35,190 nt of DNA from Candidatus Nanohalalkaliarchaeum halalkaliphilum (lineage in GTDB: Archaea; Nanohalarchaeota; Nanosalinia; Nanosalinales; Nanohalalkaliarchaeaceae): positions 1-35,190 of the forward strand of contig JALDAF010000005.1 of assembly GCA_022729315.1 (NCBI GenBank). The letters run 5' to 3'. This document shows, piece by piece, positions 18,493 through 34,926 of the stretch; the stretch's first letter is position 1; every line of letters starts with the position of its first letter. The notes under the pieces were generated by a model. The model saw only the letters and a list, made by a program, of their open reading frames with translations, ran no database searches and had not been told where the DNA came from. The position numbers and the translations under genes are program-made.

Positions 18493-21400
18493 GTGTTCCC
18501 GTTGCGGCTGCGTACATTCCTGAAATCAAGTGTTCTTGTTGTGCTCCTTGTTGCCGGACTGGGGGTCGCATCCGCTGATGAGTTGCCTGGGACGTTGGAA
18601 GGACAGATTACGACCGATCCGTTCATGACCGATGGCGGGGACACCGTTGTGGGGACAGGGAGTGGCGTGTACGTCTTCGATGATGGCGGGGTTCAATATT
18701 ATATGGCGATGCCGGCGCCGGTGTCCGATGTTGTCCATGTGGGTGGGGCGGAGTTCGTGGTGGTGCTTGCGGATACACCGTTCGACAATGTTCGGTACGT
18801 AGATGTTGCAGAACAGGAGGAGCGCTGGTCGGCGCGGACTGCTGCCGATATTTACGATGAATATGTCGGGAAGACCACGGTCACGCTTGATGTCTTCGAT
18901 CTGCAGGTGGCTGATGACGTAGCAGTGGTGGCGACTGCGACCGGGGTGGAAGGGTTCGATATGGCGGACGGTGACCACGCATGGTCGGCGGATATCCATG
19001 AAGCGGTGTGGACGGTGACCACGCATGACGGTGCACTGTTTGCTGGCAGCCATTACGGCTATCTGCACCGGATCGATCCGGGGAGCGGCGAGATCCAGTT
19101 CAGGGAGCGCATCGTGGACCCGTACGAGAGCGATGATGACGACATTGGCCCGGTAGCGCGGCCGATCTGGGACGTGGAATCCGTTGGCGGCGCAGACGCA
19201 GTTGCGGTCGGCGGTGAGGACGGGTACGTGCATTTCGTGGATCCTGACACAGGTGGCATTGACGGGAGCGAAGACCTTATCGGGTACAGTATTGGTGCCC
19301 TTGACGATTATTATGAGGATCGGACCCATCCGACAGCACAGCCGGGTGAACCGTTTTTCGATAATATCGAGCTGTACACCGTCGATGATATCACGGATGA
19401 CGGTGCTGTCGATCTGGTGGCGGTGACGCGGGAAGAAGATGCGGGCGGAACACAGGATGAGGAACTGCATCTGGTGCAGTCGATGACACAGAACACGGAC
19501 TGGACGCTCCCTGTCGACATCAGCGGGGGTATCGCGTACACGGCGGCACTGCATGGGGGTAGCGTTGTCGTACCTGAATCACCGGGAGGGACGTCACAGG
19601 ATGTTGCCGTGTACAACCTTGAAACCGGGTTAGAGGAGGATACACTGACGGTTCCGACCGTTGGCAGTGATCCAGGCGGCGATGGTGCAGCGTTCGCAGC
19701 AGGGAGCGATACGCATATCGCGGTGGTCGCGGACAGTGGGGATATGACGTTGCTGGATGCGGACGGCGATCTTCTGTGGAGTTTCCCGCGTATCACTGAT
19801 TTTGTGGTCGAATCAGGCGAGTTCCGGCAGGGGATGGAGGACTACCTGGTATACGACCGGTACGAGGATCAGCGTGACACGTTGCACCGGACGTTTATGC
19901 TCCGGGACGGTGATGACGGTAGCACGGTGTGGTCCGAGCACCAGAACATCACCGCCGCTAAAGAGTCACCGATTCGTGATATCGAACAGATAGAGCCGGT
20001 GACGGGAAGTGGAACAGATATTATGCTGGTGGCGGGACCTGATCGTGGTTCGGATGGCAGCGACCGACCGTCAAGCATCGGTGTGATGGACGGATCTGAC
20101 GGCGATATCCTCCGCAATTTTGTGCTGCAGAATACGGACGGCCAGTTCCCGCAGCTCTCCCCCTATGAAAACATCTCTGTTGCCTCGGCGACTGTGATCG
20201 GTGATGCAGGCGGGACTGGCAACAATCATGCTCTGGTTACGGCAGACGATCGGCTGTTTGCGATAGATCTCCGGACCGGCGATATCGTCGGACAGCGATT
20301 ATTCCGTTATCACGGCCCACCGCCAGAACATCAGGATGACGAGGAAGAAGCGTATGCACCGCAGACGCTGGAATGGTTCGATGAGTGGCGCCCGCACGTG
20401 GTGGCGGTCGGTCCCGGTGACCGGCCGGATATCGCGTTCATCGACCGGAACCATAACATCACCCGGCTGGAACAGGACGGAACCGGTGACGCGTTCGAGC
20501 TGACTCCACGGGAAGCGATCGACTTTGACCATTATATCCAGGACTACAGCGTTATCGGGGATGTGACCGGTGACGGCTATGACGAGCTGCTGGTCGAGGT
20601 ATCGGGCGATGACGGGATGGAGCGGATGATCGTGAGTGTGCGGGATGGTGAGGTCCTGTTCTCGTCAGGAGAGCTACGACACCGGAGCGGACTCTTTTTG
20701 CTGGAAGATGACCTGACCGGGAACGATCAGCGCGAATTCGTGACACTGCAGCGTACCGATCAAGGTGGGGGTGCGGAGATCGCGCTGTACTCTGCGTCCA
20801 CCCAGATATGGGGTATGACGTTCCACCGGTTCGCTGGCGATATCGCTACTGCACAACCGGTCGCATCAGCCGGCGATGTCACTGGAGATGGGTCACCAGA
20901 GCTCGCCGTCGGCAAGTTGCATGCAGGAGGAGAAACGCGGATCGATATATACGATGTGCAGGCCGACGACGTCGTTGACAGCATCACGTTACAGCCGGAA
21001 ACGGAACGGCAGCAGGACGAGGTTACGTCCCTCAAGTATCTGCAGCAGATTCCGGATCAGACAGGGGATGGAACGCCGGAACTGGGTGTCGTTGTCGGCG
21101 ATCATGGTGTCGTTTTTGGGGACGATGATGGCGGCCCCGGGTTTTACATCGTGGATCCGCAGGCTGGCGAGGTGCTTGTCAGCGGTGACGGCACGCCATC
21201 AGCGTTTATCGATATCGGCGATCGAACTGGTGTCCTCGGATCGAACGGTGAGCTCACCCTTGTTGATGTGACGGATGCGGTTGAGATCGGCCCGCTGGAT
21301 GATACGCTGGAACTCGACCTGTCCTGGTCGTTTGCCGGCGACGAGATCCATGATACCACGATCGAAGTGAACGACCGGCCAGTGCATCAAACAACTGATA

Positions 21401-21600
21401 CCGCGATGACGCTCCGATTACCGCCGGGCGAACATGATATAACCGTCCGGAGCACAAACCAGGACGGGATCACCGTGTACGATACAGCACAGGTGACGGT
21501 GACGGACGATTCAGACAGCGATACCCTGCTGTTCGGCGCGACGGCGCTCCTGTTCGTCATCATCTTCCTCCCCAATCTGCTGCGACGGGTGCGTGAGTGA
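18493..21600 (+). CDS. Membrane-anchored beta-propeller (PQQ/FG-GAP/integrin-alpha-like) surface protein
   Basis: Signal peptide; repeated GDVTGDGYDELLV, GDVTGDGSPELAVG, DQTGDGTPELGVVVG Ca-binding-like blades; C-terminal TM LLFGATALLFVIIFLPNLLRRVRE; GTG start. Confidence 0.85.
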   Translation: MFPLRLRTFLKSSVLVVLLVAGLGVASADELPGTLEGQITTDPFMTDGGDTVVGTGSGVYVFDDGGVQYYMAMPAPVSDVVHVGGAEFVVVLADTPFDNVRYVDVAEQEERWSARTAADIYDEYVGKTTVTLDVFDLQVADDVAVVATATGVEGFDMADGDHAWSADIHEAVWTVTTHDGALFAGSHYGYLHRIDPGSGEIQFRERIVDPYESDDDDIGPVARPIWDVESVGGADAVAVGGEDGYVHFVDPDTGGIDGSEDLIGYSIGALDDYYEDRTHPTAQPGEPFFDNIELYTVDDITDDGAVDLVAVTREEDAGGTQDEELHLVQSMTQNTDWTLPVDISGGIAYTAALHGGSVVVPESPGGTSQDVAVYNLETGLEEDTLTVPTVGSDPGGDGAAFAAGSDTHIAVVADSGDMTLLDADGDLLWSFPRITDFVVESGEFRQGMEDYLVYDRYEDQRDTLHRTFMLRDGDDGSTVWSEHQNITAAKESPIRDIEQIEPVTGSGTDIMLVAGPDRGSDGSDRPSSIGVMDGSDGDILRNFVLQNTDGQFPQLSPYENISVASATVIGDAGGTGNNHALVTADDRLFAIDLRTGDIVGQRLFRYHGPPPEHQDDEEEAYAPQTLEWFDEWRPHVVAVGPGDRPDIAFIDRNHNITRLEQDGTGDAFELTPREAIDFDHYIQDYSVIGDVTGDGYDELLVEVSGDDGMERMIVSVRDGEVLFSSGELRHRSGLFLLEDDLTGNDQREFVTLQRTDQGGGAEIALYSASTQIWGMTFHRFAGDIATAQPVASAGDVTGDGSPELAVGKLHAGGETRIDIYDVQADDVVDSITLQPETERQQDEVTSLKYLQQIPDQTGDGTPELGVVVGDHGVVFGDDDGGPGFYIVDPQAGEVLVSGDGTPSAFIDIGDRTGVLGSNGELTLVDVTDAVEIGPLDDTLELDLSWSFAGDEIHDTTIEVNDRPVHQTTDTAMTLRLPPGEHDITVRSTNQDGITVYDTAQVTVTDDSDSDTLLFGATALLFVIIFLPNLLRRVRE

Positions 21601-24649: not shown

Positions 24650-24666
24650 GTAATACCCCGTAATAC
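24650..24666 (+). promoter_or_regulatory. Direct repeat GTAATAC-CCC-GTAATAC upstream of the TATA box of the 1086-aa surface protein gene
   Basis: Two exact heptamers 10 bp apart; same architecture at 31762-31778. Confidence 0.6.
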
Positions 24667-24682
24667 GCCTGTTTTCAAAGGA

Positions 24683-24690
24683 TATATAAG
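24683..24690 (+). promoter_or_regulatory. TATA box (TATATAAG)
   Basis: About 30 nt upstream of the ATG at 24716; leaderless architecture. Confidence 0.65.
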
Positions 24691-24715
24691 GCGGCCACGG
24701 TGAGCATATACATTG

Positions 24716-27700
24716 ATGCCCGACGTAACGAAGAAGCTATCTGATCGGAAGGCACCACTCGTTCTCATCGCACTTACTCTGCTTGTGTTATCCGTATTTG
24801 TCGTGGCACATGATGGGGATCACTGGTTGGAGGCGGACGACAGCCTGAACCCGGATGCAGATTTCGTGAACACGACACCAGAAGAATCTGAAGCTGTTGT
24901 AGCAGAATATCCTCACTGGTCTGATTTTGGGCAAACAGTTCCCATAGCGTTCCGAGGTGAAGATATCTATGTGAACATATCATTCCTTGAAGACGATGAC
25001 GAAAACGATCAAGCACCATTTAACATAACAAACATATCTGGAGGACTGGTTGATTCAGGAGTAGGAAACCAAGCAGATGGCGTATTCGGTTTATCTACTG
25101 ACTCTTCGAATGCTTCGGAAGATGGCCGGTACGTGTACTGGGGAGACTGGAATGATCCGGATGATCACCGCCATATTGACCTTGTATCTTCTGAGTACAA
25201 CGTGACTGGGCGTATAGCGCCGACGTCAGGAGGTTCGCTTACCAATGTGAAGATTGAGCTTCGGTACTGGGAGAACCTGTCGCTGATCGATCATGAGACC
25301 CGGGATGACATCAACCTGACGGTTGATGATTGGCCTGAGGAGGGCGGTGAGGAGAGAATATACCGTATTAATACGTCAACGCTTGAAAAATTCTGGATCG
25401 GAGTGACCGCGGACGGCTACGGCTGGAACTACAACCCGAGCCGATCCGTCGGTGCCGATGATGGGAATTGGGAGGTTCCGTCCGTTGAGTTGCCGCACAT
25501 AAATGATATTGGTGCGTTGCATGTTGGAAATGGTCCTACCGAGGCCACGGTCGTGGGCGAGCTGGTATACGAGGATGGGACGCCTGCAGAAGGTGTCGAG
25601 GTTCGACTGACCGGTATGTGTGAAGAGTCGCTGCGATGTTTCTCGCGGATGCCGTACATGGAACGGCCACCTGTCATGACCAATATGACGAACAGCTCAG
25701 GATATGCTACATTTAATGGCGTGTATCCCGGTGCGTTTATCGAGGAAGGAGAAGATATTATATGGGAAGATATGGCGGCGTACAGCGTAAGTGTGACGAA
25801 TGATTCGGTGGCACGGGTTTCTGGTGATGTATTTATGCCTGATTTCTTCCTGGAGGGCGAGGGCTTCTTTGAGGAAGAGGTTGAGGTGACGGACACGGTT
25901 GGCCACATCAACGGAACGATCGAGGGTGATGACGAGGCGACGTATGTAATTGGTGCGATGAACACGGAGACGGGTGAGGCGCTGCGGTTGGCGCCTCAGG
26001 AGAATATCAGCAATATTTCGGTTCGTGCCCTTCCGAACGGCACATACTCTGTTATTGCAGCAGAGGTAGAGGGCGGGAATCCGGTTGCCATGACATCGGA
26101 GACCGTGGAGATCGAAACAGATACTACAACGACCCTCCATTTCGAGTTCCCGGAGACCGTGACATTGACTGGGAACGTGACAGATGAGGCGGACAATCCT
26201 GTGGAAAATGTTCGGGTTGAGGCAGAGAACCAGACAGACTTCCAGTTCTACTCCACCCGGACCGAAGCCGACGGGAGTTATACACTGCAGGTGGTGAACG
26301 ACACGTCTTACGATGTGCGACTGTTCCCACCACACGACAGCGAGTTCTCTGAGACAACGGAGAACGTTGCTATCAATAAAAGCGAGACGGTGAAGAATTT
26401 CACGCTCAGCACCGGTGAATGGCTGGCCGGATATGTGGAAACGTCGGGCGGCGAGCCGGTTGACGCTCATGTGTACATATGGGGTGACAGCACGTTCCAG
26501 GATGCAGCGACGGATGAGGACGGGTTCTACAATATCACTGGGCTTGAGGCTGGTGAGCAATATAGCTTTAATGTATATCCGTTTGAGCCTGGAGTTGAGC
26601 GGAACCGCTCAACGTTCACGCTTGTACAGGGACAGGATTGGCGGAACGTAACGCTTGAGGCAGACACCCGGGATATCAGCGGGTTTGTGACGGATGAAGC
26701 AGATAATGCATTGAATGCGACGGTCCGGCTGGTGAACCATGACCAGAGGCAGCGACAGGAGGTTGAGACGAACAGCAGCGGCGGATACAATTTCACGGAC
26801 CAGCCGCGGCATAGCTATTATACGATCCGTGTCCGACCGGATAATGCAAGCTTCGGACCGGATGATCAGTCATTTGGATTGTCCGACGACCGTATTGTGG
26901 ACTTCACGTTGGAAACCACGACCAGTGTCTCCGGATACGTGCTGGATGAGAGCGATACCGGGGTGGAGAACGCAGAGGTGTTCGCATTCAACTGGACGAC
27001 AGACACGTACGGTTGGACACGGACGGATGCAGATGGGTCATACCAGATCGAGCTTCGGGAAGGCGGATACAATATCGAGGCATGGAAGGAAGGGTTTGCA
27101 CCAAACCTGTCCACGGTAGTAGAGGTTTCCGAAGAATCAACGCAGAACCTTACCCTCTCCCAGGGAGTATCTCTCTCCGGACAGATCACGGAGAACCAGC
27201 AGCCGACACCCTACAGTGGAGAGATCGCGGTCTGGAACCGTGAACATGAAGCATTCGGTCATTCAGAGATCGTGAACGGTGAGTACAACATCACCGGATT
27301 ACAGGATAATATAGCGTACAACGTCTGGTTCAGAGTGGATACGGACGAATTTACACCGGATAGAGAGAGCGTTGACCTTTCAGAGTTGAGCGAACCGTAT
27401 GAAAAGAACTTCAGCGTGGCCGGGAACAAGGGACAGAAGCTGAACGTGACTGTTACATCCAGCGGTGCACCTCTGGCGAATGCGACCGTAAGAACCCCGC
27501 TCAGAGAACGGACGACGAATGATGCAGGGTTTGTCACATTCCCGAACCAGTCCATCGGTGGGTTGACGATCAGTATTAATAAGGACGGGTATAGGGGTGT
27601 GCTTCGAACGGAGAACATTGATCGGCCAGGACAGCTGGGTGTCGAAGAATACAAATCCCTCTCGGTATCCCTGGACCAGGTGGTGGAGACAGAAGTAGAT

Positions 27701-27973
27701 GTGAACGTGACACGCGATGGAGAGGCGGTCAGCAGTGTTTCCACAGTGTTCGTGTCCAACGAGACCGGTATCTCACAGCATTCAAGTGCCGTGACCGGTG
27801 GGGACGGAGAGACAACTGTAGAAGGACTTGTGGATGGAGACTACCTGCTTACCCTGGGTATCAGTGAAGATGAGGTGCATCGTGATTCGGTCACCGTTGA
27901 TTCAGATGCAGGAGCACAGACCAGCGAAGGATTCGATGGTTCTGAATACGATGTATGGTTCAATGCAGAGTGA
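24716..27973 (+). CDS. Giant secreted surface protein with tandem carboxypeptidase-regulatory-like/SpaA-like beta-sandwich repeats
   Basis: Signal peptide; about 8 repeats of the type (L/I)xGxVxDEADNPVxNxxVxAxN…DGSYxL; many NxS/T sequons; no C-terminal TM. Confidence 0.85.
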   Translation: MPDVTKKLSDRKAPLVLIALTLLVLSVFVVAHDGDHWLEADDSLNPDADFVNTTPEESEAVVAEYPHWSDFGQTVPIAFRGEDIYVNISFLEDDDENDQAPFNITNISGGLVDSGVGNQADGVFGLSTDSSNASEDGRYVYWGDWNDPDDHRHIDLVSSEYNVTGRIAPTSGGSLTNVKIELRYWENLSLIDHETRDDINLTVDDWPEEGGEERIYRINTSTLEKFWIGVTADGYGWNYNPSRSVGADDGNWEVPSVELPHINDIGALHVGNGPTEATVVGELVYEDGTPAEGVEVRLTGMCEESLRCFSRMPYMERPPVMTNMTNSSGYATFNGVYPGAFIEEGEDIIWEDMAAYSVSVTNDSVARVSGDVFMPDFFLEGEGFFEEEVEVTDTVGHINGTIEGDDEATYVIGAMNTETGEALRLAPQENISNISVRALPNGTYSVIAAEVEGGNPVAMTSETVEIETDTTTTLHFEFPETVTLTGNVTDEADNPVENVRVEAENQTDFQFYSTRTEADGSYTLQVVNDTSYDVRLFPPHDSEFSETTENVAINKSETVKNFTLSTGEWLAGYVETSGGEPVDAHVYIWGDSTFQDAATDEDGFYNITGLEAGEQYSFNVYPFEPGVERNRSTFTLVQGQDWRNVTLEADTRDISGFVTDEADNALNATVRLVNHDQRQRQEVETNSSGGYNFTDQPRHSYYTIRVRPDNASFGPDDQSFGLSDDRIVDFTLETTTSVSGYVLDESDTGVENAEVFAFNWTTDTYGWTRTDADGSYQIELREGGYNIEAWKEGFAPNLSTVVEVSEESTQNLTLSQGVSLSGQITENQQPTPYSGEIAVWNREHEAFGHSEIVNGEYNITGLQDNIAYNVWFRVDTDEFTPDRESVDLSELSEPYEKNFSVAGNKGQKLNVTVTSSGAPLANATVRTPLRERTTNDAGFVTFPNQSIGGLTISINKDGYRGVLRTENIDRPGQLGVEEYKSLSVSLDQVVETEVDVNVTRDGEAVSSVSTVFVSNETGISQHSSAVTGGDGETTVEGLVDGDYLLTLGISEDEVHRDSVTVDSDAGAQTSEGFDGSEYDVWFNAE

Positions 27974-27978
27974 TACAG

Positions 27979-29376
27979 ATGAGTAAGAATAATACAACAC
28001 GATTCGTGGCGGTCCTCGTTGCAGTACTTCTCTTTGTGGGAGCTGGTGCAGCGATGGAGGCGAACATCCAGCCGTCCAGTCCAAGCGATATCACGCTGGA
28101 CAGTTCGAATAATTACGAGGTAGAAAAAGAGTTTGATGGGACCGCGTCCACCGGTGATATCACCAGCTATACGTGGGATCTGGTTGGGTCAGGCCAGTCA
28201 GATACCGGGCCGCAGGCAGAATTCACGTTTGACCGGGACAGTTCCGGTACCAACACCATCCGGTTAACCGTGTCGAACGGGACCCACAGTGATGTGGATG
28301 AAGTGACGCAGGTCCTGCACGATGAACCACAGGTCACGATTACCGGTCCGTCATCGCTTGATGAGGATGAGGAAGGTACCTGGGAAATTGATGACTTACA
28401 GAATGAATTTGATGGCCCAGTGAGTTATACGTGGGAGGTTGATGGTTCTGAAGAGGCCACAGGTGATGACTCATTCTCCCACAGTGCCAGCAGCGACTTT
28501 ACTGTAACATTGATTGTTGAGGACAATGCTGGACTGACCGATTCTGACACGGTCAGCGTCAATGTCGATGAAGAAGATGACAGTGATGATAGTGATGATG
28601 ACAGTGGATCCGGTTCCGGTTCCACCGGTCCTGCACCGTCTGTACCGAGCGATGTGTTCTCGGAGCTGGTGGGTACGGTGCGGGCCGGTGACGTTGCGAC
28701 GGTGGAGATCGAGGAGGATGATGAGTATGGAGTACGATCGATTTCGATCTCGGTCAATACGTATACGCGGGATGTGCGCATCACTGTGGAGAAGCTGGAT
28801 GAAGAGCCAGCTGATGTCACGGTGGACGTGACGCGTAACGGTGAACGTGCCGTGTCGCACTATATGGATATTGAAGCGGAGAACCTGGACGATGACCGTA
28901 TTGATGACAGCACGATCGAGTTCAACGTGGAACAGGACTGGATCGATGCGAATGATATCGATACAGAAACGGTCCGGCTGGAGCGGTACCATGACGGTGA
29001 CTGGCAGGAGCTTGTCACGGAACTCGTGGATGGTACGGGTGCGACGTGGGTGTTTGAAGCGGAGACGCCCGGATTTTCATACTTTGCCGTGACCGGTGCG
29101 TCCACGGAAGAGGAACCGGATGATGAAGAGGAGGATGTGACCGCGCCTGATGAAACAGATGAAGAGGACGAGGTTGAGGATGCGGATCCGGTTGATGAGA
29201 CGGACGATATGGATGATGCACCGGCTGAAACGGTAGAGGAAGAGGAATCGTTGCTGGACCGTACCGGTGTTTTCCTGCTAATCCTGCTGGTGATCGGCCT
29301 GGTGGCCGGTGGCGTGGTCCTGTACCGTCGGAAGGAGCAGGCCCGTTCCATGTTCAGGGATCTTTCTGGGAACTAG
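27979..29376 (+). CDS. PKD-domain surface protein with PGF-pre-PGF-like domain, acidic stalk and C-terminal TM
   Basis: Two PKD-like domains (SYTWDLVGSG, SYTWEVDGSE); FNVEQDWIDANDIDTETVRLERYHDGDWQELVTELVD…FEAETPGFSYFAV; C-terminal TM followed by basic residues. Confidence 0.88.
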   Translation: MSKNNTTRFVAVLVAVLLFVGAGAAMEANIQPSSPSDITLDSSNNYEVEKEFDGTASTGDITSYTWDLVGSGQSDTGPQAEFTFDRDSSGTNTIRLTVSNGTHSDVDEVTQVLHDEPQVTITGPSSLDEDEEGTWEIDDLQNEFDGPVSYTWEVDGSEEATGDDSFSHSASSDFTVTLIVEDNAGLTDSDTVSVNVDEEDDSDDSDDDSGSGSGSTGPAPSVPSDVFSELVGTVRAGDVATVEIEEDDEYGVRSISISVNTYTRDVRITVEKLDEEPADVTVDVTRNGERAVSHYMDIEAENLDDDRIDDSTIEFNVEQDWIDANDIDTETVRLERYHDGDWQELVTELVDGTGATWVFEAETPGFSYFAVTGASTEEEPDDEEEDVTAPDETDEEDEVEDADPVDETDDMDDAPAETVEEEESLLDRTGVFLLILLVIGLVAGGVVLYRRKEQARSMFRDLSGN

Positions 29377-29518
29377 AGTGTCGCGTCACCGTCGTCGGGG
29401 TTCAGGTACGTGTCCGCCCATCCATAGTTCAAGCTGGAGGCGGGTAATCCGCAGGGTGTGCGGGTTGAAACGTCTGGGTACGTTTCTCTAACTCTGGAGA
29501 GAACCAGCGTTTATTAGC

Positions 29519-30265
29519 GTGAGTCGAGAAATGAAGGGTATGGTTGAGTATACAGGGTGGAAGTCCACGGTACTTGGGGTGCATACTACCCGTATCTTGG
29601 TGTCTGTTGTTGCCGTGTTATCGTTTGCGACCGGACTGCTGCATATGGGGATGGATACTGTTTCTGGCCCACTGGGGGCGGTGATACCGCTATGGATCCA
29701 GAATCTGTCCGGGTTTACGGGAGCATTGACCGGGTTTGTCGTGTTGAGCGTGATGATCGGGCTGTGGGGGAGGTACCGGGCAGCATGGCGGGTTGGCGTC
29801 ATCGTCGTCCCGTTGACGATGGTCCAGGCGGTGCTGCAGGCAAGTATCCTGTCCGTTCCGTTGATTCTGGTCGCGGTGCTGGCGACCGTGGGCCTGTACA
29901 ATAACAGGGATGCATTCGGGCGTTCGATCGGATTGACGTTGACGCAGAAAGTTTCTATGGGCGCGGTCATCGGCGCAGTAGTCTACGGGACGGTAGGGGC
30001 GTACACGCTTCGCCATGGATTTACACAGGATCTGACACTGTTTGATGCGTTCTACTATGCGATCGTAACGATGAGCACGGTGGGATACGGTGATATCGCC
30101 CCGGTGACGTTGGAAGCCCGCATCTTCACGGTCTCACTCATCGTCGTCGGTGTCGGAAGCTTCACTGCGTTCGTCGGATCCCTGATCGGACCGATCATCC
30201 AGCACCATCTCCCGAAAAAAGTGGAGGGCCGGCGGAACAAGCGGGAGCAAAAACGCGCTGAATAA
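29519..30265 (+). CDS. Two-pore-type potassium channel (Ion_trans_2)
   Basis: Selectivity filter MSTVGYGDIAP with flanking TM helices; GTG (29519) or ATG (29531) start. Confidence 0.9.
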   Translation: MSREMKGMVEYTGWKSTVLGVHTTRILVSVVAVLSFATGLLHMGMDTVSGPLGAVIPLWIQNLSGFTGALTGFVVLSVMIGLWGRYRAAWRVGVIVVPLTMVQAVLQASILSVPLILVAVLATVGLYNNRDAFGRSIGLTLTQKVSMGAVIGAVVYGTVGAYTLRHGFTQDLTLFDAFYYAIVTMSTVGYGDIAPVTLEARIFTVSLIVVGVGSFTAFVGSLIGPIIQHHLPKKVEGRRNKREQKRAE

Positions 30266-30299
30266 CCGGGTTATGCGCCCTTCAAGACGGAGGACGCGA

Positions 30300-31760
30300 T
30301 CACAGCAGTGCGTCCCGGATATCGTCGTTCAGCGTATCGAACCGGTCCAGGTAGTCTTGCCGGTCATCCGTGAATGATTCCCATTGCTGCGCGAAGTCGT
30401 CCAGCTGTCCCGGCGGGTAGTACGCGTCCAGGTCGATGCCGTCCACGTGTGTGGGTAACGCCATGCCGTACACGTCATCGAGCTCCCAGTCCAGGGTGCC
30501 GCGCGTGGTCTGATCGAGGATGGTCACGGTGTCGTCCACGCCGATGTCGTTCCCGGCGGCGTCACCGGTGTTGATGAGGTAGCTGTCGACGTCGGTGTCA
30601 GCGATCAGATCGTGCAGCCGGTTCCCCTCCTCCCCAGGCGGGCCGATGATGAACGGGTTGAACCCGGGGACGCGCACCGCGTCACCGTCCTTCTCCGGGT
30701 CCGCGGCACCGGTCTCCACTGATTCTCCAAGCATGAAGGTGGATGCTGCCTGTGCATCCGTCAGCTTCGCGATAGGCGGCAATAGGCTGTTCCGTGCGAT
30801 GAAATATATCTGGTCGAGTTCCGGCATATCGATATGTTCGGATGCGCTTTCAAGCATGTCCCTTGGTACAACGGCCCTGCCATTGGCGGTGAGGTCCGTG
30901 TTGTGGAAGTCCACGTGTCCGTACCGGTCCACGTCCACGTTCTCCAGGACTGCTCCTGCGCTGGTCACGGCACGGTACAGTTCCTCCTGGCTGTCGGTCA
31001 GTCCGTTTGTCTTCGAGTACAGGCCGTTCCCTTCCGTCCCGATCACGGTTCCATCCGGCAGCAGTCCCACCACATCATCCTGCAGCATTTCGGCCGATTC
31101 AGGCGGTTCCAGTCCAAATCCGTGGCTGGTAAGCGTGGATTTCCCGGTCCCGCTCAACCCGAAGTAGAGCTGGTGCACGTCCTCCAGTCCGTCATCCTCG
31201 ATGGTGACGCGTTTCGTCCCGGCGTGCAGTCCGAGCCCGCCCGCCTGCTTCACGTCGTACATGAAGTTCCGGAGAAACGACTTTTTCCCTTCACCCGTAT
31301 AGTCGCTGCCCAGTACCGCGGTCGTGCCCTGCTCCGGCCACACCAGGATCCCGGTCCCGTCCTGGTCCGGAAGGTGGTACGTCTCGAAATCCGGTTCATC
31401 ACTGTCCTCCTCGTACCGTTCAAACAGCGTGTCCAGCGCCAGTGCGATCCGGGCATAGTCCTGCGGAACGTGGTACCGGCACTGGTATGGCTGTTCGTCC
31501 CCGATCTGGAAATCAAGCGTGATCATGTCACGGTCCGCACCCTGTTCCCGCACCTCCTGCAGCGTCAGGTATTCAGCCAAACCGAAGTCGTGGTCGACCG
31601 CGTTCCATGTCCTGTCACTGCTCCGGGACCGGAACGCACTTTCGAACGCGAGCGACCCGTACACGGTCTCCACGCCGTCTTCATCGGCCAGTTCACGCAG
31701 TGTTTCACGGGACGGGTTGTACAGGGATCCAGTATCGTCGGTGTCACCAAACCTACCCAT
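30300..31760 (-). CDS. pckA: Phosphoenolpyruvate carboxykinase (ATP-type), divergent
   Basis: GLSGTGKSTLT P-loop, LQDDVVGLLPDGTVIGTEGNGLYSKTNGL, YFIARNSLLPPIAKLTDAQAASTFMLGES. Confidence 0.88.
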   Translation of the reverse strand: MGRFGDTDDTGSLYNPSRETLRELADEDGVETVYGSLAFESAFRSRSSDRTWNAVDHDFGLAEYLTLQEVREQGADRDMITLDFQIGDEQPYQCRYHVPQDYARIALALDTLFERYEEDSDEPDFETYHLPDQDGTGILVWPEQGTTAVLGSDYTGEGKKSFLRNFMYDVKQAGGLGLHAGTKRVTIEDDGLEDVHQLYFGLSGTGKSTLTSHGFGLEPPESAEMLQDDVVGLLPDGTVIGTEGNGLYSKTNGLTDSQEELYRAVTSAGAVLENVDVDRYGHVDFHNTDLTANGRAVVPRDMLESASEHIDMPELDQIYFIARNSLLPPIAKLTDAQAASTFMLGESVETGAADPEKDGDAVRVPGFNPFIIGPPGEEGNRLHDLIADTDVDSYLINTGDAAGNDIGVDDTVTILDQTTRGTLDWELDDVYGMALPTHVDGIDLDAYYPPGQLDDFAQQWESFTDDRQDYLDRFDTLNDDIRDALL

Positions 31761-31761
31761 T

Positions 31762-31778
31762 GTATTACGACGTATTAC
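31762..31778 (-). promoter_or_regulatory. Direct repeat GTAATAC-GTC-GTAATAC immediately upstream of the PEPCK ATG
   Basis: Plus-strand GTATTACGACGTATTAC, at -2 to -18 from the start codon; same half-sites and spacing as 24650-24666. Confidence 0.6.
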
Positions 31779-31785
31779 ATCGTTG

Positions 31786-31794
31786 TTTATATTT
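31786..31794 (-). promoter_or_regulatory. TATA box of PEPCK (AAATATAAA on minus strand)
   Basis: About 30 nt upstream of ATG (31760). Confidence 0.6.
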
Positions 31795-32860: not shown

Positions 32861-34468
32861 CTATCGATCGTTCTCTGTTGATTCTTCACCGGTTTCATCG
32901 AGCGGTTCCGGCATCGCCATCTGTTCGCCCCGGATCTCTTCACGCACCTTCTTCCGGAGCCGGTCCGCGGTCTCTTTATCGATATCCATGATGGTCGGGT
33001 TACCGCGGCTGACACCGTACGACCCGGCCGTGTCCAGTGTGAGCGTGGCCAGGTTCCATCGGCGCTGCAGGATGGTCTCCGTCTGTATCACGTCCTGCAC
33101 CCGGCGGTACACCACGACCGCGGCATCCCGGTGCCAGAACCCGTTCCGTGCAGACATCGACTCCTCCGTCACCGCGTACCCCCGGTGCTTCCACCGGTAA
33201 TGCGCCCCGACAACCGCGACAACAAGAAGTAGGGGGATGAGGGCCGGTGGCACCTGGAGCGGAACATCCACGAGGTACGGTACTGCTGCCAGCACCGCCA
33301 GGAACGCTGTGGCCGCCAGCAGGAACCGGATGACGTACCGGCGGCGCGCCCGTTTCGGCGGTCGTTTCCAGTCCACGACCTCACCCGGCATCACCCGGTT
33401 CATCGTGGTGATCACCTCGTCCCGGTCCGCCATCGGCAGGGCGTGGTACTCCTTGCTTTCCTCACCGGGCGCGTACCCGGCCGTGTTGATCTGGAGGCCG
33501 GCAAGCCCCAGCATCCGCGTGACCGGGTCGTCCACAACGGTCACGCTCTGTATCTTTTCACGGGGCAGGGTACGCTCGTGCCGGGTGAACATACCGTGCT
33601 CGATCCGTATCCGGTCCTCGTACTCCTCCATGATACAGTCGTGGTACCGCGTGTACCGCCGTACCGCTTCCTGGACCCACAGCAACCCGGCAAACACGAA
33701 CCCGCTGGCTACCATGAGCGGCGGCACCAGTTCAAAGAGAACGGGGGCGAACAGAAGTACTCCCACCAGTCCTGTGGCTACGGCGTAGATGAGGGTGGTG
33801 CGGCCCCGCGTCAGTGCGAACACGCTGTACACGAACAGGTTGCTTACGTTCATTTCCGTGGTCCGCACCGGTTCTGCGGTTCTCCGTTCCGTTGCTGGCT
33901 GGTCGGCCGGCAGTTCATCGTCGGATGCATCCGTCTCCGCTGCCTCCTCCTTTTCCTCACGGATCCGGTCCTGGAACCGTACCGCGGTCTCGTAGGAGAC
34001 GTACCGGAGGGAGACCTCGGTCTCTCCCCCGCCCGCGGTCTCGATATGGAGCTCGTTGACACCGAACCATGACAGGACGAACGGCCGTCTAATATCAATA
34101 TTCTGTACGCGGTGCAGGGGGATACGCCGGTCACGCCGCGAGATCACGCCGGACGTGATGACGAGCTCGTCCTCCACCAGCCCGTACCGGAACCGTTTCA
34201 CGTACAGGTGTTCATACGTGTACGCGGCAACGTAGGAAACGGCCAGGATCGGGAACAGCATCAGTGAGACCAGGCCGCCACCACCGAGAAACAGGTAGGC
34301 GGCACCGATCCCGAGCGCGGTCCCCGACTTGAGGGTTCGGACCACGGCGGACAGTTGATGCAGCCGCTCCAGCGTCTCGTGTTCTTCTGCAGTATCCATC
34401 CCGTTCTGGCCGGGATCGGTGCGGTCCGCATCAGTCTCCGTGTCCGTGCCTTCGTCGTTGCTGGTCAT
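32861..34468 (-). CDS. bPH2 (DUF304) membrane protein, YdbT-like
   Basis: 535 aa; repeated TM pairs plus bPH2 segments (EDELVITSGVISRRDRRIPLHRVQNIDIRRP; EDRIRIEHGMFTRHERTLPREKIQSVTVVDD). Confidence 0.85.
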   Translation of the reverse strand: MTSNDEGTDTETDADRTDPGQNGMDTAEEHETLERLHQLSAVVRTLKSGTALGIGAAYLFLGGGGLVSLMLFPILAVSYVAAYTYEHLYVKRFRYGLVEDELVITSGVISRRDRRIPLHRVQNIDIRRPFVLSWFGVNELHIETAGGGETEVSLRYVSYETAVRFQDRIREEKEEAAETDASDDELPADQPATERRTAEPVRTTEMNVSNLFVYSVFALTRGRTTLIYAVATGLVGVLLFAPVLFELVPPLMVASGFVFAGLLWVQEAVRRYTRYHDCIMEEYEDRIRIEHGMFTRHERTLPREKIQSVTVVDDPVTRMLGLAGLQINTAGYAPGEESKEYHALPMADRDEVITTMNRVMPGEVVDWKRPPKRARRRYVIRFLLAATAFLAVLAAVPYLVDVPLQVPPALIPLLLVVAVVGAHYRWKHRGYAVTEESMSARNGFWHRDAAVVVYRRVQDVIQTETILQRRWNLATLTLDTAGSYGVSRGNPTIMDIDKETADRLRKKVREEIRGEQMAMPEPLDETGEESTENDR

Positions 34469-34926
34469 ACCGTATCCGCTCCACGGAACCGGTTGGCCTG
34501 GCGCCGTAGCGACGCCTGCAGTTCCTCGGCCCGCTCCGGCCGTAATCCAGGGATGTACGCATCAGAACCACGTGAGCCTGCCGTGTACACGACCACGCTT
34601 GCCAGTCCGAACAGCCGCTCCCAGGGATCCCGGTTCGTGTCAACGTGCTGGATCCGTGAGAACGGGACAACGCTCTTCCGCCGGGTCAACACGCCACGCT
34701 TCAAGTATAACGCGTCATCGTCCACGGAGAACCGCCAGATCTGGTACCGCCGCACCTGGTACACGACAGAGACCACCATCAGCAGCAGCCAGCCTCCGAC
34801 AGCGATCAGGACCGCCGGCAGGTTGAAGTAGAACGCAACACCGCCAGCAATCACGGATGCCACGGTGACGGTGACAGCACCAAGCAGGATCCACATGTTC
34901 ACAACGGTCCGGTCAAGCTCTTCCAT
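34465..34926 (-). CDS. bPH2 (DUF304) membrane protein, YdbS-like
   Basis: 153 aa; VDDDALYLKRGVLTRRKSVVPFSRIQHVDTNRDPWERLFGLASVVVYTAG; 4-nt overlap with the YdbT-like gene. Confidence 0.87.
   Translation of the reverse strand: MEELDRTVVNMWILLGAVTVTVASVIAGGVAFYFNLPAVLIAVGGWLLLMVVSVVYQVRRYQIWRFSVDDDALYLKRGVLTRRKSVVPFSRIQHVDTNRDPWERLFGLASVVVYTAGSRGSDAYIPGLRPERAEELQASLRRQANRFRGADTV

Follow-up and report, generated by a model that had tools for sequence, protein, structure and literature searches.

The glycolytic regulon of the Thermococcales relies on the TGM (TATCAC-N5-GTGATA), a palindromic operator found at glycolytic and gluconeogenic promoters and associated with TrmBL1/Tgr. The TrmB regulon of Halobacterium and Haloarcula (TACT-N7-8-GAGTA) also covers gluconeogenesis, in the extreme halophiles that host nanohaloarchaea. 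To our knowledge, gene regulation is almost unexplored in the DPANN archaea, which are tiny, host-dependent cells. For TrmB-type proteins, the position of the binding site relative to the TATA box is thought to set the sign of regulation, an upstream site leading to activation and a downstream site to repression (PMC10817205, PMC4158304). A different fold is used by the ribbon-helix-helix (RHH) repressors, among them RelB, two dimers of which occupy paired half-sites along the same face of the DNA (PMC2812701).

The window analysed here is the whole stretch of 35,190 nucleotides that forms contig C73 of the genome of Candidatus Nanohalalkaliarchaeum halalkaliphilum (1.13 Mb, 76% complete). The original prediction for this window was that GTAATAC-N3-GTAATAC occurs in the promoters of two unlinked genes, encoding a surface protein and phosphoenolpyruvate carboxykinase (PEPCK, pckA). 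Both copies are exact (Table 1), and the identity of their half-sites, the mini-palindrome formed by each half-site and the 10-bp spacing of the half-site centres were all confirmed from the sequence. The whole motif reads as a 17-bp palindrome, GTAnTAC-NNN-GTAnTAC. The window contains five matches with up to three mismatches against 0.84 expected, a count made on both strands in which palindromic sites thus appear twice. The surface-protein ORF is listed from a TTG at 24713, with an ATG at 24716. The window also encodes a 1035-aa protein with PQQ/FG-GAP beta-propeller repeats that is likely secreted (18493-21600, +), as well as two adjoining bPH_2 (bacterial PH) genes, the larger of which has three domain copies (32861-34926, -).

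Table 1. Features of the window, operator sites elsewhere in its genome, and loci in other genomes.
Feature	Position	Strand	Remarks
Operator GTAATACCCCGTAATAC	24650..24666 (C73)	+	exact match; non-canonical position, upstream of the surface-protein TATA box
TATA-like box (atatataa), surface-protein gene	24682..24689	+	read from sequence
Surface protein	24716..27973	+	predicted secreted; carboxypeptidase-regulatory-like and SdrD_B domains
Phosphoenolpyruvate carboxykinase (ATP), pckA	30300..31760	-	486 aa; ATG 31760; Pfam PEPCK_ATP 1.2e-57
Operator GTAATACGTCGTAATAC	31762..31778 (C73)	-	exact match; between pckA TATA and ATG; canonical position; ATG at site+18; central-carbon site
TATA-like box, pckA	31786..31792	-	read from sequence
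Operator at gap	C62		window's genome; central-carbon site
Operator at fbp	C36		window's genome; central-carbon site
Operator at ROK kinase gene	C28		window's genome
Operator at RHH fusion gene	C66		window's genome
Operator at gene for small putative secreted protein	C70		window's genome
RHH-nucleotidyltransferase fusion, intact loop	L257:2266-3100 (G038:C17:31765)		outside the order
RHH-nucleotidyltransferase fusion, intact loop	L258:1550-2330 (G039:C56)		outside the order
PadR-like gene with two tandem operators 24 bp apart	L018:1097-1541 (G017:C1:426195-426235)

At the genome scale, the motif was followed by pattern searches together with the reading of stretches. GTANTAC-N3-GTANTAC is found exactly at five places in the window's own genome, against none for the reversed control. 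The 28 genomes of the window's order, the Nanohaloarchaeota, whose small-genome assemblies are often incomplete, hold 33 exact matches against none. When one mismatch is allowed, the same genomes give 99 operator matches versus 32 for the control (summed over genomes), and outside the order the pattern was matched in one of 12 genomes. The consensus of 68 promoter sites is RTAWTAC-N3-GTAWTAY, in which T2, A3, T5, A6, T12, A13, T15 and A16 are invariant. Chance or base composition may explain a few one-mismatch matches in coding regions, which behave as background (the control gives 32 in the 28 genomes). For the exact sites, this reading is refuted by their excess over the control, by their functional clustering and by their fixed promoter position, and it has virtually no probability as an account of the motif. 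An operator was expected to be enriched at promoters genome-wide and conserved at orthologous promoters; the exact matches in the 28 genomes bear out the enrichment, and the PGK, FBA, ROK and GAPDH promoters carry the motif across the order.

Target families were read from the genes beside 96 sites. Sugar-phosphate nucleotidyltransferases account for 12 of them, with two regulator fusions in addition, and the other targets are PGK (10), cupin-like proteins (9), class I fructose-bisphosphate aldolase (8), ROK sugar kinase (8), GAPDH of both types (5), NUDIX (4), and phosphomutase (PGM), FBPase and PEPCK (one each). Pfam confirms representatives of the target families; for the aldolase the match is to the DeoC/LacD family, and the finer name comes from its sequence. 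The target nucleotidyltransferases keep the nucleotidyltransferase loop in their sequences. The cupin-like targets (L064, L021, L025, L026, L014, L101, L114, L136) recur without a confident Pfam match, and this family lies near the RHH fusion described below in many genomes. In the window's genome, the sites at gap, fbp, pckA and other genes suggest that the regulon leans to gluconeogenesis there. The motif is almost certainly a real operator of a central-carbon and sugar-nucleotide regulon in the Nanohaloarchaeota. Enrichment at promoters and recurrent targets uphold the proposal of a transcription-factor operator common to PEPCK and unlinked genes. The proposed link between gluconeogenesis and the cell surface holds in that the motif lies at glycolysis/gluconeogenesis genes and at sugar-nucleotide genes, which provide surface precursors; its two-gene scope was too narrow for what is an order-wide sugar regulon.

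Most sites lie between the TATA box and the start codon, often overlapping the ATG. In 68 sites the ATG follows 12-32 bp after the start of the site, with spacings of 15, 18-20 or 22-32 bp, and an A/T-rich box stands 9-15 bp ahead of the operator sites. In 26 one-mismatch sites the ATG is exactly at +15, the second half-site running into the start codon (GTAWTATG). With the TATA box ~25-30 bp before the ATG, the target genes are apparently leaderless, and the operator extends over their start region, which is the classical position of archaeal repressor operators. Since the operator at most targets fills the space between TATA and ATG, a protein bound there would stand in the way of RNA polymerase, and the motif is probably a repressor operator. 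Judging from this position, repression at the canonical sites is very likely, and the repression originally proposed for PEPCK fits the layout of the whole regulon. Among the genomes of the order, pckA was found in the window's genome (G000) and in G001 only. The G001 promoter has GCAGTCCAGGGTTCTAC at the same place (ATG +18), matching 9/12 motif positions; the estimated probability of such a match by chance is ~4 in 10,000 at that position and ~0.5% over the allowed positions. Footprinting at pckA, with this one orthologue, points to a degenerate or lost site in G001. The surface-protein site, upstream of the TATA box, is an exception to the layout. Its position and the precedent of the TrmB family together suggest that it may activate, which is plausible.

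Palindromic half-sites 10 bp apart suggest an RHH protein bound as one dimer per half-site. In both G000 and G001, the operator is found in the own promoter of a gene encoding RHH_1 fused to NTP_transferase in one ORF, hereafter RHH-pNT. RHH_1 (PF01402) scores 23.8, 26.2 and 22.1 bits at the N-terminus (curated cut-off 20.5), and the nucleotidyltransferase (NTase) fold is recognized by Pfam (PF00483) and by Foldseek matches. The fusion occurs in 20 genomes of the order, truncated copies counted, the scan returning QJJ-7, SG9, Nanosalina J07AB43, Nanosalinarum J07AB56, M3_22 and others. Beyond G000 and G001, a further 13 genomes have an operator at a distance of 15-1343 bp from the fusion gene (chance ~1-2.5% per genome); these genomes are non-independent owing to shared gene order, and the linkage may partly reflect inherited order. 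The gene at this operator varies, however (cupin-like, HAD, GalE-like, NUDIX and others), which argues against one inherited site. G002, G004 and G007 have neither sites nor fusion gene, as expected. Upstream of the fusion gene of G017 (L198), two half-sites separated by N4 rather than N3, GTAATAC-AAAT-GTAATATG, overlap the start codon and are possibly a spacing variant of the operator.

Other genomes depart from this picture. G006 (99% complete) has good sites at aldolase, PGK and ROK, and no RHH-pNT was found in it; the RHH proteins that it does encode resemble antitoxins or NikR. Either G006 has recently lost or replaced the fusion gene, or the operator has another reader. In G011 the fusion is present with no site within one mismatch. 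G012, of which ~43% was read for targets, has the fusion, PGK and PGM without a site, and a ROK promoter with a two-mismatch site; aldolase and GAPDH were not seen in it. Four incomplete genomes (G013, G021, G025, G026) contain sites, and the fusion was not found in them. G014 has the fusion with no operator near it, and most genomes outside the window's family have no good site in the fusion's own promoter. Because G006, G011, G012 and the four incomplete genomes do not fit, our confidence is graded: close to certainty for the regulon, high for repression at canonical sites, and moderate for the fusion, which, on the evidence of sequence, is the probable reader of the operator.

The GxGTRLxP...PK nucleotide-binding loop is absent from all 15 aligned fusion proteins of the order, in which the SLTL strand and the NRS turn are invariant, and the Asp of NGD is changed to His in most of the main fusion family. 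The predicted structure (pLDDT 84.5) comprises two RHH-like helices and an NTase domain that matches GDP-mannose pyrophosphorylases (E 4e-19), the RHH strand being modelled with low confidence (pLDDT <50 at residues 1-7). Sequence and model together suggest that the loop-less second domain is a pseudo-enzyme, with a predicted role as a sensor. Outside the order, the loop is intact in the fusions of G038 and G039, which are possibly autoregulated enzymes. The own promoter of the G038 fusion contains a perfect 17-bp palindrome, ATCATAC-TTA-GTATGAT, 3 bp before the ATG (ATG at +20), that shares the inner core ATAC-N3-GTAT with the operator of the order. This palindrome was spotted by eye, post hoc, among six outside loci (estimated chance ~1 in 1000), and a search through 303 kb of G038 gave no further exact match to it.

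A TrmB-family regulator might read the operator instead, as in the glycolytic and gluconeogenic regulons of the Thermococcales and haloarchaea: TrmBL1, Tgr and TrmB control the same kind of regulon and follow the same position rule (PMC10817205, PMC4158304). Every genome of the order encodes a ~288-aa TrmB-type protein, and a second TrmB-type regulator lies ~3 kb from the GAPDH operator in G000 (C62:20814-21020 (-), L057). However, the ~288-aa protein is equally present in the site-less G002, G004, G007 and G011 and outside the order, and no operator lies near its gene at any locus examined. Matches to the full sugar-binding TrmB domain (PF11495) are weak and partial throughout the order, and the TrmB motifs TACT-N3-AGTA, TATCAC-N5-GTGATA and TACT-N7-8-GAGTA all differ from the operator (PMC4158304). 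TrmB, being ubiquitous, unlinked and without a site, was rejected as the regulator, and we consider it unlikely to be the reader.

Palindromic half-sites can also make up the operators of stand-alone RHH proteins, such as the NikR-like protein (~131 aa), RHH-pNT then being merely a linked target. We retain the NikR-like protein as a rival on account of its presence in G006, which is without RHH-pNT; it was not found in G012 or in the few-site G005, G009 and G011. Its recognition strand nevertheless differs (ISLSL, without the conserved Arg), no operator was found at or near its genes in the order, and it also occurs outside the order in G029, G030 and G037, genomes that do not have the motif. 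Its presence in motif-less genomes and its lack of linkage to sites led to its rejection, and we give such a reader little probability. The gene of a small PadR-like winged-helix protein has operators in its own promoter in G017 (Table 1) and, with one site each, in G008 and G019. The similarity of this protein to the PadR/LmrR-type fold is weak and falls short of significance (best E 0.02). Since the gene is found at useful scores in just three of the 28 genomes of the order, its distribution largely refutes it as the general regulator, a role that is very improbable.

The explanation that we favour, and rate as somewhat better than even, is that the motif is the operator of a sugar regulon and is read by RHH-pNT as a repressor. 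One RHH dimer would sit on each of the two palindromic half-sites, the pair lying 10 bp apart along the same face of the helix, and DNA binding would be set by a sugar phosphate or NDP-sugar that the pseudo-enzyme domain senses. Depending on the presence or absence of this signal, RHH-pNT would bind and keep transcription from starting at glycolytic, gluconeogenic and sugar-nucleotide genes and, in the window's family, at its own gene as well. In the window, pckA would be repressed, and the surface-protein gene may instead be activated. We infer the binding of RHH-pNT to the motif, its ligand and the sign of regulation. It is an even question whether RHH-pNT represents a new class of transcription factor, that is, an autoregulated RHH-sugar-nucleotidyltransferase enzyme that lost catalysis in the Nanohaloarchaeota, symbionts with reduced genomes, became a sugar-phosphate or NDP-sugar sensor and captured an entire regulon of glycolysis/gluconeogenesis and surface sugars. 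If RHH-pNT is the regulator, it is an enzyme turned transcription factor whose enzyme-like and degenerate stages are both found in living archaea, and carbon flux is tied to the supply of cell-surface sugars. For a whole phylum, an operator is now defined, together with its list of targets and a candidate regulator of sugar metabolism. No earlier description of the system was found in the open literature, to which the search was confined.

The operator of the Nanohaloarchaeota resembles the known glycolytic/gluconeogenic operators as a shared motif enriched at central-carbon promoters. It differs from that of the Thermococcales regulon in sequence and spacing, and the reader there is a winged-helix TrmB with a sugar-binding domain. 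A TrmB-type regulon is marked by a known motif, from which the operator differs, and by a DNA-binding protein with a canonical PF11495 domain, which was not found in the order. With the RHH repressors MetJ, Arc, CopG, RelB and NikR, RHH-pNT shares an N-terminal RHH with a conserved NRS turn; unlike them, it is fused to a nucleotidyltransferase-like domain, an RHH-nucleotidyltransferase fusion for which we found no described precedent in the open literature. Of the features of sugar-1-phosphate nucleotidyltransferases, it has the NTase fold and lacks the GxGTRL...PK loop. This fold is shared with GDP-mannose pyrophosphorylase and GMPPA, and 7d72 and 7d74 (GMPPA/GMPPB complex) are among the best structural matches. 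GMPPA is a non-catalytic sensing paralogue; RHH-pNT is unlike it in being archaeal, in the deletion of the loop and in the DNA-binding domain attached to it.
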